Below are positions 47,362 to 50,081 of a stretch of DNA of 51,878 bases, in pieces. The DNA comes from an uncultured Erysipelotrichaceae bacterium (GTDB taxonomy: Bacteria; Bacillota_I; Bacilli_A; Erysipelotrichales; Erysipelotrichaceae). The notes under the pieces were generated by a model. It worked only from the letters and a program-made list of their open reading frames with translations, was not told the origin of the DNA and ran no database searches. The stretch is from contig CAMCSA010000013.1 of assembly GCA_945877405.1 (NCBI GenBank), positions 1 to 51,878 of the forward strand, in the 5' to 3' direction. The translations under genes were made by a program, and so were the position numbers. Numbering within the stretch: the stretch's first letter is position 1; each line of letters begins with the position of its first letter.

Positions 47362-47380
47362 TGTCTTCTGTCTTTTATTT
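47353..47380. terminator. Terminator of the secA-prfB-rlu operon
   Basis: GAAGAC/GTCTTC stem with TGAT loop overlapping the stop codon, then TGTCTTTTATTTT. Confidence 0.6.
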
Positions 47381-49489
47381 TCTGTACAGAAACAGGATTT
47401 CTCCAGGTTCCAGTGGAATGCTTCCATTGATGTCCATTTCCTTGCCTGTCATAAGATCCTCAAAATGGCCGGATGGCATGTTGCCATAAACTGTGGCAGA
47501 TTGATTGCCGATATTGACTGCAAAGATCAGTGTTTCATTTCCAAGGTTACGGGAGAAGGCAAGATGTTCATTCATGGACTGAATCTGTCTGTAATCACCA
47601 TCGGTGAAAATCGGATGGGAAAGACGCATATGATTCAGGCGGCTGATATAATCGGACAGCTCATTTTCAACAGGCTTATCAAAGTATGGACGCAGATCAT
47701 CATCGCTGTGAGCACCCTTTCTTCCTTCTTCTCCCCACTCACTGCCATAATAGATGCATGGGATGCCTGGCATGGCAGTCAGAAGTGCATAGACAGCAGG
47801 AAGATGATTCTTTTCCTTCAGAATGCTGGCAATACGGTCAACATCATGGTTATCACAGAAGGAAAGCAGATGGCTTCCTCTGTACAATGTCCAGTTTTCA
47901 TTAGCGAACTGCCTGTTGAGTGAAAAGCCAATCTCACACAGGTTGTGGTCGTTGAAAGAGGAATAGATGCCTTTGCGGCATTCGTAATTGGTGACTGAAT
48001 CAAGCAGATGATCATTCATCAGTACATTGTAGTCACCACCAATCATTTCTCCGATAAACAGGAAATCCGGATGAGACGCACGGACATGATCACACAGCTC
48101 TCTCATGAATGTTCGGTTCAGCATGTAGGCAACATCCAGTCTCAGACCATCAATCCGATACTGTTCAATCCAGGAATCCACCGTGGAAAGAAGCCATGTT
48201 CTGACCTGTGGGTTATCCAGATTCAGTTTGACCAGTTCATGATGACCTTCCCAGCATTCATACCAGAAACCATCCGGACCGTTATGATCATGGAAGTTGA
48301 TGATAAACCAGTCTTTATATGCTGAGTTTTCTCTGTTATGGATGACATCCTGGAAATATGGGAAACCTCTGCCGACATGATTGAATACACCATCCAGGAT
48401 GACTTCCATATCGTGATCATGCAATGCTGCACAGACTTCAGCAAAGTCAGTATCTGTACCAAGACGGCAATCCAGCTTTGTCATATCCCTTGTATCATAG
48501 CCGTGTGCATCGCTTTCAAATAACGGATTGAAAAGTACAGTTGTCACACCAAGCTTTTCCATATGCGGAATCCATTCTGTGACATGCTGAATTCTGTTTA
48601 CCGTCACACCATCATTGATACGTGGTGCTCCACAAAAACCGATCGGATAGATCTGATAGATGATTCGATTGTAGTTCATTCTCTTTTTCCCTTCATACAG
48701 ATAGTGGCGGATCATTTCAGCAGTCAGGGCTGTTTCATCCTTCGGATCAATATAGACATCCTTTCTGGATACCCATTTAGCAGTCCGCAGTTCATGGCTG
48801 TCCATACATATTTCCTGTTTTCCATGTGCACGGGCAAAAAAACCGAACAGAATGGAAGAGGAATATGCCCATGGTTGGCATCCATAATATTCCATTTCAC
48901 TGATTTCAATTCCGGTTTCTTCTTTGACTTCCCGGATGCATGTTTCCTCGATGGATTCACCAACTTCATTAAATCCTGCAACAAGGGCATATTTCTGATA
49001 GCTGCCGTTGGCATATTGGGTCACAAGAAGCTGATCTTCATCGTTGATAACGCCGACGATGACAGCTGGGGAAATCACAGGATAGGCGATGTTGCCACAC
49101 TTCGGGCATCGCTGGGCACGTTCTTTGCGGTCATGAATAAAAGGGGATCCGCATTTGCCACAATACTGATGGTTGTTCAGCCATGTATAGATCTGCCATC
49201 CGGTGATACCGGCAAAAGACAAATATTTGGGCTGGTAGCCACGCATGGTATGCACACCTAAAGAGATATGTTCCATGCCGGAAAGATCAGCAAGATAGAA
49301 ATGCGTTGTATCAATTTCAAACAGATAGTAGAAATCAAGGGATGGATCAACTTCTTCATAATGGAAAAAGGTTCTGTCCTTTTTCATGATAATATTGTTT
49401 CCATCATAGGAAAAAACGATGTCACCTTTTACGGGTGGCACAGGACGATATTCATTATGATATACATGTGGTCTGATCTGCTGGTACAT
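47375..49489 (-). CDS. NudC-like NUDIX fused to GH13 alpha-amylase
   Basis: A 704-residue open frame. Residues 1-~265: NAD+ diphosphatase (NudC) with N-terminal domain, zinc ribbon CGKC...CPKCG, NUDIX box GFNEVGES...REVKEETG and the QPWAYSSS motif typical of NudC. Residues 271-704: GH13 with DGVFNHVGR, GLRLDVAY (nucleophile Asp), FIGEMIGG (acid/base Glu) and FCDNHDVDR. Met271 (48679) begins the amylase with an AAGGGAAAAAGAGA stretch ahead, so internal initiation may also give a free amylase. Start at ATG 49489 with GAGGC. Combines NAD+ or capped-RNA hydrolysis and maltodextrin cleavage; no known link. Confidence 0.85.
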   Translation of the reverse strand: MYQQIRPHVYHNEYRPVPPVKGDIVFSYDGNNIIMKKDRTFFHYEEVDPSLDFYYLFEIDTTHFYLADLSGMEHISLGVHTMRGYQPKYLSFAGITGWQIYTWLNNHQYCGKCGSPFIHDRKERAQRCPKCGNIAYPVISPAVIVGVINDEDQLLVTQYANGSYQKYALVAGFNEVGESIEETCIREVKEETGIEISEMEYYGCQPWAYSSSILFGFFARAHGKQEICMDSHELRTAKWVSRKDVYIDPKDETALTAEMIRHYLYEGKKRMNYNRIIYQIYPIGFCGAPRINDGVTVNRIQHVTEWIPHMEKLGVTTVLFNPLFESDAHGYDTRDMTKLDCRLGTDTDFAEVCAALHDHDMEVILDGVFNHVGRGFPYFQDVIHNRENSAYKDWFIINFHDHNGPDGFWYECWEGHHELVKLNLDNPQVRTWLLSTVDSWIEQYRIDGLRLDVAYMLNRTFMRELCDHVRASHPDFLFIGEMIGGDYNVLMNDHLLDSVTNYECRKGIYSSFNDHNLCEIGFSLNRQFANENWTLYRGSHLLSFCDNHDVDRIASILKEKNHLPAVYALLTAMPGIPCIYYGSEWGEEGRKGAHSDDDLRPYFDKPVENELSDYISRLNHMRLSHPIFTDGDYRQIQSMNEHLAFSRNLGNETLIFAVNIGNQSATVYGNMPSGHFEDLMTGKEMDINGSIPLEPGEILFLYRK

Positions 49490-49579
49490 AATGATTGCCT
49501 CAACAATATAATTATACGACAGAAAAAAATTGAAAAACAGACTGTATTTTATGCTTGTGCATTTGTATATTATAGGTGT

Positions 49580-49968
49580 CAAAAGAAAAGAGAACCTGAT
49601 CATAGAAAGAGAGGTACTCAAAATGAAAAAGGTGTTACTCGAATATTAAGCATGTTCTTATGAGCACATGCAGAAAATACTCATAAGAACAATCATCATG
49701 GAAGTCTTTGAAGGCATGAATCATACCTGAAAGAGTACAGATGAAGATGACAGAAGACAGAAGAGAATAAAGATCTGTACGCCCAGGCTTCAAAGCAGAA
49801 AAAAGAAAGTGACAAGTCTGCATGAGGACAGACCAATGGACAATTTCAATTAACAACTGAATCTGTTAATATCCAGAGAAATCTGGAAAATCGAGATCAA
49901 CAGAACCGATCGAGTTGACATGATAAAGACTCATAAGGAAGGTAACCTGAAATCAGGACCTTCCTTTT
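49580..49968 (+). ncRNA. Candidate structured RNA with mini-ORF and alternative hairpins
   Basis: 390 nt between an AT-rich -10 (TATATTATA, ~49566-49574) and a strong terminator (49935-49968). No coding frame of size. It holds an 8-codon ORF MKKVLLEY with AGAGAGG (49623-49649), competing hairpins GCATGT/ACATGC (49650-49671) and GTTCTTATGAG/CTCATAAGAAC (49654-49690), then GTACAGAT/ATCTGTAC, GTCTG/CAGAC, ATTAACA/TGTTAAT, CCAGA-GAAA-TCTGG. CTCATAAG recurs at 49930-49937, touching the terminator stem, so the 5' arm could pair there instead. It could be a new ncRNA or an attenuator. Confidence 0.5.
49935..49968 (+). terminator. Two-tier terminator of the candidate RNA
   Basis: AAGGAAGGT/ACCTTCCTT outer stem with a CCTGA-AA-TCAGG inner stem, T-run. 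It ends just before the MATE promoter. Confidence 0.85.
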
Positions 49969-49971
49969 ATA

Positions 49972-50000
49972 TTGACTTCAGAATGGTGAATCTGTATACT
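49972..50000 (+). promoter_or_regulatory. MATE gene promoter
   Basis: TTGACT (49972-49977), 17-bp spacer, TATACT (49995-50000). Transcription would start near 50007, at the first nucleotides of the riboswitch candidate. Confidence 0.8.
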
Positions 50001-50006
50001 CGTTAA

Positions 50007-50060
50007 CTGAAAACCACTGGGTGGTATGGATTTTTCCGGACGCAAGTCCCTTTTCGCCAT
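50007..50060 (+). promoter_or_regulatory. Candidate guanidine-IV (mepA-type) riboswitch
   Basis: Short leader: CCAC-TGG-GTGG hairpin (50014-50024), then TATGGATTTTT, then CCGGAC-GCAA-GTCC (hairpin 50038-50049) and CTTTT. It sits at the very start of the transcript of a MATE efflux gene. The mepA motif (guanidine-IV) is known upstream of MATE genes in Clostridia and its sequence as I remember it is similar. Match made from memory, not by a search. Confidence 0.5.
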
Positions 50061-50081
50061 AACAGAAAAGAGGTAGTAATC

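Follow-up and report, generated by a model that had tools for sequence, protein, structure and literature searches.

What kind of object occupies positions 49580-49968 of the window (i.e., the whole analysed stretch of 51,878 nucleotides from an uncultured Erysipelotrichaceae bacterium), and which gene, if any, does it control? The initial annotation described a structured transcription unit with a leader-like mini-ORF and competing hairpins, called it an unknown RNA, and read it as a peptide-controlled attenuator or a new class of RNA. Our sequence evidence indicates that the element is a structured RNA gene of approximately 390 nt with two tiny ORFs (approximately 8 and 5 codons). The strand folds at -94.7 kcal/mol over 396 nt, compared to -70.8 +/- 5.4 kcal/mol for dinucleotide shuffles (z -4.41; 0 of 100 shuffles as low), which, together with the coding signature of its first ORF, supports the description as a structured unit with a leader-like mini-ORF. 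Searching the whole window with Rfam 15 at the gathering score returned two tRNAs only, none of 20 relative loci matched a family, and relaxing the scan to E <= 10 gave no credible match. These scans of the window and of 20 relative loci rule out membership of any listed RNA family, in agreement with the initial annotation. On comparative grounds, we hold the following anatomy with high confidence.

49511-49516, minus strand: -10 box (TATAAT) of a divergent promoter, recognized as a TATAAT-like box (5-6 of 6 bases) at a set distance from AGACT.
49539-49545, plus strand: AGACTGT box common to both divergent promoters.
49566-49571, plus strand: forward -10 box (TATATT), placed by sequence, its position kept in relatives.
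49590-49619, plus strand: hairpin 0, a predicted fold around the Shine-Dalgarno (SD) site of ORF1 (AGAGG, 49610-49614).
49623-49649, plus strand: ORF1, MKKVLLEY and a stop, supported by counts of an SD and short ORF upstream of the core and by synonymous codon variation.
49654-49690, plus strand: hairpin A, with the loop word GCAGA within TGCAGA (49669-49674), supported by its register to codon 8 and by covariation.
49816-49833, plus strand: core, comprising GUCUGC (partner of loop A, or of the local CAGAC at 49829-49833) and SD2 (GAGG, 49824-49827), supported by pairing counts.
49836-49853, plus strand: ORF2, MDNFN and a stop, supported by its 5-codon length and its SD2 spacing.
49856-49862, plus strand: conserved ACUGAAU after ORF2.
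49872-49887, plus strand: hairpin B (UCCAGAGAAAUCUGGA), positioned by sequence, with similar hairpins there in relatives by eye.
49935-49968, plus strand: intrinsic terminator, a hairpin and T run.

The initial annotation contained neither ORF2 nor the element's best-conserved part, 49800-49867. By DNA search, 51 of 60 genus genomes hold matches, densest at the mini-ORF region and at the core near 49800-49900. A covariance model of the core (R1) matched 30 of 195 family genomes, and a broader core model (R2) matched 79 of 272 family genomes, representing 9 of 59 genera of Erysipelotrichaceae; within the genus, 57 of 70 members match R2 by our own count of the output. In a sample of the class, four of 296 genomes match, all four within the same family (Erysipelotrichaceae), and in a sample of the phylum eight of 392 match, seven in the family and one, weakly, elsewhere. 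Locus L145, from another family of the class, has a weak core match at 1400-1620 (E 0.005 in the 392-genome search) and carries a KVLL ORF (MTKVLLLMTRLRELKDLT and a stop), AAAGACCAATG and AAAACTGAAT, with no clear hairpin A; it is possibly a distant relative and possibly a chance match. Two further candidates from that same other family, L190 and L191 (E 0.07 and 0.10), were judged by eye to be chance. A pattern scan of named genomes gave 46 stretches, 40 of which are the element, in entries titled Solobacterium, Erysipelotrichaceae, Holdemania, Traorella or Anaerorhabdus, or given only as Firmicutes; the other six are chance occurrences, mostly within coding sequence, and were left out of the set. 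A phage-borne element was rejected, as IMG/VR held 0 exact pattern matches.

Several genomes hold more than one copy. The genome of the window contains a second element (G000:C30:20481-20839; loci L002 and L003) with the ORF MRKVLLEYR and a stop, the loop UCAGA and the core UCUGA. Extra copies in Holdemania (L087, L148, L149, L150) lie 3-4 kb from the main copy, and one of them consists of the core and ORF2 only, behind a 29-codon ORF. Tandem modules occur in L006, L009, L010, L012, L013 and L017, where upstream ORF1-like frames, often MK[KE]VLLNY, are each followed by a hairpin; in L017 the entire ORF1-core-ORF2 unit is repeated. Our main comparison set holds 85 elements. A set of 64 elements, also used below, comes from 67 regex rows after three were removed (L029 at 1825, L052 at 1436, and one for L050); the true element of L050 was not put back. 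A full-length MAFFT alignment misplaced hairpin A, and RNAalifold run on it recovered the loop-core pairs and little more.

The 8-codon ORF with a ribosome-binding site reported in the initial annotation is in place, with AGAGG 8 nt upstream of MKKVLLEY. Because the regexes that picked the elements required an ORF1-like start, we quote ORF1 conservation from 87 distinct core hits, for which no such start was required, although the core model behind these hits was trained on elements picked with ORF1. An SD and short ORF, scored without amino-acid preference, lie upstream in 84 of the 87. By eye, two of the three remaining hits carry the same ORF at a longer SD spacing, and the third, an extra copy in Holdemania massiliensis (L087 at 7638), is without ORF1. 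The consensus is MK[KE][VI]LLE[YFI]: K or R stands at codon 2 in 84, V or I at codon 4 in 83, E at codon 7 in 74, and Y, F or I at codon 8 in 82. All 83 ORF1s that reach codon 5 encode Leu there, with six Leu codons in use, and the V/I-L-L run is conserved, though L6 is K in 6 of 83. Searching 40 genus genomes with a pattern of SD plus ORF1 turned up 35 sites in 33 of them and 0 with the reversed control, and these sites agree with the element positions where both are known. At the level of codons, these comparisons demonstrate coding selection on ORF1. In support of hairpin 0, the fold of the 55-nt leader beats those of its own shuffles in 74 of 85 elements.

The hairpins that the initial annotation placed directly after the mini-ORF (49654-49690) and at the terminator (49935-49968) are both present. 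The first of these, hairpin A, folds at -14.1 kcal/mol in the window. For ORF1s of 8, 9 and 10 codons among the 64 elements, codon 8 lies on average 6.8, 6.9 and 7.3 nt, respectively, from its stem (means that keep three folds that chose the wrong helix), while the ORF1 stop shifts from 3.8 nt ahead of the stem to 1.7 nt within it. Since the codon 8 distance is constant and the stop shifts, the stem is not placed by the stop codon, so its placement would follow the position of a ribosome near codon 8 or, equally, the start codon. The main helix contains five pairs that are always paired, and it carries 100 double-changed cells compared to 27 in shuffles (49 distinct composites), a difference favored by our selection of helices by folding and measured against shuffles that disregard the kinship of the elements. 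Covariation in hairpin A is strong.

The 5-nt loop word of hairpin A (GCAGA in the window) is complementary to UCUGC, which lies directly before SD2. When the N[CT]AG[AG] closest to the loop center is taken as the loop word, which leaves its first base free to vary, this pairing is exact in 60 of 64 elements, while the best of 10,000 permutations reached 45, and 17 of 17 non-majority loop-core types match. It is likewise exact in 77 of 83 elements of the larger set, from which L052 and L147 were dropped for this count. The natural loop:core pairs are GCAGA:UCUGC, GUAGA:UCUAC, ACAGA:UCUGU, CCAGA:UCUGG and UCAGA:UCUGA, the last being the pair in the second copy of the window's own genome, and the first loop-core base pair takes four interchanging types. 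On a composite alignment, 98.8% of 245 loop-core cells are paired, with 20 double changes compared to a mean of 2.7 in shuffles that again ignore kinship (0 of 500 as high). Slid controls drop to 22-47%, and the changes occur in different genera. This covariation is, among our comparative data, the strongest evidence in the case.

The core also has a local alternative, in which UCU(G/A) pairs with (C/U)AGA across SD2 and encloses SD2 in the loop. This local stem is less well supported: it is 92.9% paired, with 7 double changes, a number reached in 5 of 500 shuffles, and 94.8% paired on alignment A3; it is lost in L056, L153 and L154. The predicted median energies are -5.4 kcal/mol for the local stem and -9.1 kcal/mol for the loop-core duplex (without loop cost). 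Since these energies are of the same order, the model makes a switch between the local stem and the loop-core pairing plausible. A true two-state switch may not hold generally, since some elements lose the local stem, and the pairing of loop A with the core could simply be a fixed pseudoknot. Competing pairings were part of the initial annotation, and this idea survives in that UCUGC has rival partners in loop A and the local arm; the conserved alternatives involve SD2, not the terminator as had been proposed.

What follows SD2 is a very short frame. Of 85 ORF2s, 57 are exactly 5 codons long, compared to 5.4 on average and at most 11 in 200 shuffled runs; 80 of the 85 have 5-10 codons and 84 have 4-12. 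The end of SD2 lies 8 nt ahead of the ORF2 AUG in 83 of 85 elements, and the stop codons interchange (TAA 58, TGA 24, TAG 3). Residues vary after codon 2, and little of the peptide apart from its start and its length is conserved. The simplest reading of these patterns is that ORF2 is a mini-ORF kept short. A word matching ACUGAAU lies near the ORF2 stop in 67 of 85 elements.

We hypothesized that the element is a stand-alone translation-gated RNA switch in which ribosomes on ORF1 would control initiation at ORF2, a reading to which we give an even chance. A ribosome reaching or pausing near the end of ORF1 (approximately codon 8) would invade the base of hairpin A, and this would shift the balance of UCUGC between loop A and the local arm, whose pairing leaves SD2 inside a hairpin loop. 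The changed partner of UCUGC would then turn ORF2 initiation on or off, as in pseudoknot-coupled leader ORFs. Because the neighboring genes are not conserved, the effect would probably fall on the RNA itself, be it on its stability, its processing or some part that acts in trans, rather than on a single adjacent gene. The V/I-L-L run makes branched-chain amino acids or nascent-chain arrest candidate signals. Two further points count against the switch: a ribosome at codon 8 would cover just the base of hairpin A, and the fixed register to codon 8 is also a fixed register to the start codon.

A different reading takes the element to be a very small mRNA. Its octapeptide MK(E/K)VLLEY, perhaps along with the pentapeptide, would act in trans, while the pairings would only set the amount made. 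The amino acids of ORF1 are kept across nine genera with synonymous changes, and extra upstream ORF1 copies are found in L006, L009, L010, L012 and L013, both of which speak for this reading. We nevertheless consider this unlikely, given the poor conservation of the ORF2 peptide, a fixed register of hairpin A to codon 8 that would be needless for a mere product, and eight residues without a secretion or membrane feature.

The initial annotation instead favored control of termination. Its repeat was reported correctly: CTCATAAG at 49680 and 49930 and CTTATGAG at 49657 are exact, and they are the sole plus-strand copies in the window. The terminator region of the window folds at -17.3 kcal/mol and is followed by the tail TTTTATATT. 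A simple script detected a terminator of hairpin and T run in the tails of 47 of 85 elements; it overlooks terminators with long loops, the window's among them. As a cis attenuator, the element would let ORF1 translation control termination at 49935-49968 and read-through into the MATE gene (peptidase M24 in many relatives), which fits the terminator at the 3' end and the same-strand gene that comes next in the window and in many genus members. However, the proposed competition between CTCATAAG and the terminator, a pairing that exists in the window, is unconserved in relatives. The longest word common to the 3' arm of hairpin A and the tail averages 5.56 nt compared to 5.38 nt in shuffles (81 elements), and we rejected an antiterminator role for CTCATAAG. 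Compared with the features of a transcription attenuator, ORF1 would serve as the short leader ORF by its sequence, but the terminator is not among mutually exclusive structures, with the hairpin A arm word not repeated at the terminators of relatives, and there is no regulated same-strand operon downstream.

The neighboring genes bear on the same question. Among 72 loci, the gene after the element encodes a peptidase M24, a MatE transporter or an amidohydrolase, is some other unrelated gene, or runs convergently, and the upstream genes likewise differ between genera. The MatE gene of the window lies behind a promoter-like site of its own (49972-50000), which also counts against the attenuator, and its leader holds a small hairpin (50013-50025); the region 49972-50081 has no Rfam match. 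Because relatives have different downstream genes, often convergent ones, the peptide-controlled cis attenuator of the initial annotation is quite improbable for one neighbor, and control of the MATE gene or of any single neighbor was rejected on these non-conserved neighborhoods. Since its neighbors are not conserved, the element looks like an independent RNA gene. Nor does the element fit a riboswitch, as no conserved metabolic gene is under control and the neighbors differ between relatives. That a structured RNA acts through its conserved sequence (e.g., in trans or by binding a protein), with both mini-ORFs incidental, would suit the highly conserved core (GAAAGUGA...AGACCAAUGG) and the conserved ACUGAAU, but is very improbable given that ORF1 is conserved at the codon level and the ORF2 frame is kept with interchangeable stops.

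On the other side of the element, NUDIX (NADH pyrophosphatase type) and alpha-amylase domains share one 748-aa frame on the minus strand of the window (47375-49621); in relatives they form two adjacent frames. Promoter-like and terminator ends had been claimed for the element, and a plus-strand -10 box, TATATT, at 49566 and the terminator hairpin with its tail can be seen, but a simple consensus scan lists neither. The forward promoter has no standard -35, and transcription is expected, from sequence, to start near 49578. AGACT is present in 71 of 85 elements, and the minus-strand -10 lies exactly 22 bp from it in 67 of these 71, with a perfect TATAAT in 62. By script, the forward -10 lies at 21 bp from AGACT in 41 of 71, the rest being ambiguous between overlapping candidates. 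Within the region 49480-49571 and in relatives, the minus strand reads TATAAT-N6-TGTTGGG, often followed by an immediate hairpin and T run. The pattern CAAYA..WTTATA occurs in 58 of 81 elements with enough upstream sequence, and in 37 of these 58 a hairpin and T run stand on the minus strand directly behind the start region, suggesting that this strand may yield an ultra-short transcript (a few tens of nt) or an attenuator of the divergent gene. In the window, the minus-strand start region runs directly into the NUDIX gene. A promoter shared by a regulon was rejected, as the exact pattern occurs at the two own-genome copies only, and a loose pattern gave 20 matches compared to 81 for the backwards control.

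Taking the switch and the divergent promoter together, we tentatively propose an RNA-only translation sensor. This would be a free-standing gene with two mini-peptides as its whole coding output, in which ribosome traffic on the octapeptide ORF would be relayed through a loop-to-SD switch to the 5-codon ORF, and in which a rigidly spaced divergent promoter would often drive a terminated ultra-short transcript on the opposite strand. We consider this fuller picture possible, and more doubtful than the switch itself.

Two known systems resemble the proposed coupling. In repY-repZ of IncI-type plasmids (ColIb-P9), a leader ORF precedes a loop that pairs upstream of the SD of a second ORF, giving pseudoknot-coupled translation. 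The element shares the leader ORF, the loop pairing directly upstream of SD2 and, as proposed here, the coupling; it differs in that its second ORF has 5 codons and encodes no replication initiator protein, and in that it sits on genome contigs with its own terminator. In translational attenuators of the ermC type, a hairpin follows a short leader ORF directly, and a competing structure contains the SD of a second ORF. A competing pairing around SD2 is found here too, its local arm being weakly supported, but the second ORF, at the lengths given above, is no resistance or other protein gene. Because no protein gene is controlled, we do not file the element under repY-repZ or leader-ORF attenuators, as we understand these classes. 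In known cases, leader ORFs and loop-to-SD pseudoknots stand in front of protein genes.

A search of the literature, largely outside subscription journals, gave no description of such an RNA or of the ORF1 peptide, and no two-ORF, loop-to-SD architecture. The trp leader RNA and transcription attenuator rnTrpL/peTrpL of Sinorhizobium, as described in PMC7298713, contains a short ORF and acts in trans; it is similar to the element as a short leader ORF on a small RNA able to act off its own operon, and differs in being cut from the leader of the trp operon, while the element has no conserved downstream operon. Intergenic RNAs that carry conserved short ORFs emerge from genome-wide scans for non-coding RNAs (Stav et al. 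2019, PMC6429828), and the element suits that description; Holdemania and Solobacterium are not named in the main text of that report.

A conserved RNA gene with a regulated ORF of 5 codons would extend the leader-ORF idea to stand-alone RNAs that sense translation. To our knowledge, RNA regulation in gut commensals such as Holdemania has been little studied, and the element is a concrete, testable object in these organisms. If the RNA-only sensor is true, it would represent a new class of two-RNA regulatory module in Erysipelotrichaceae.
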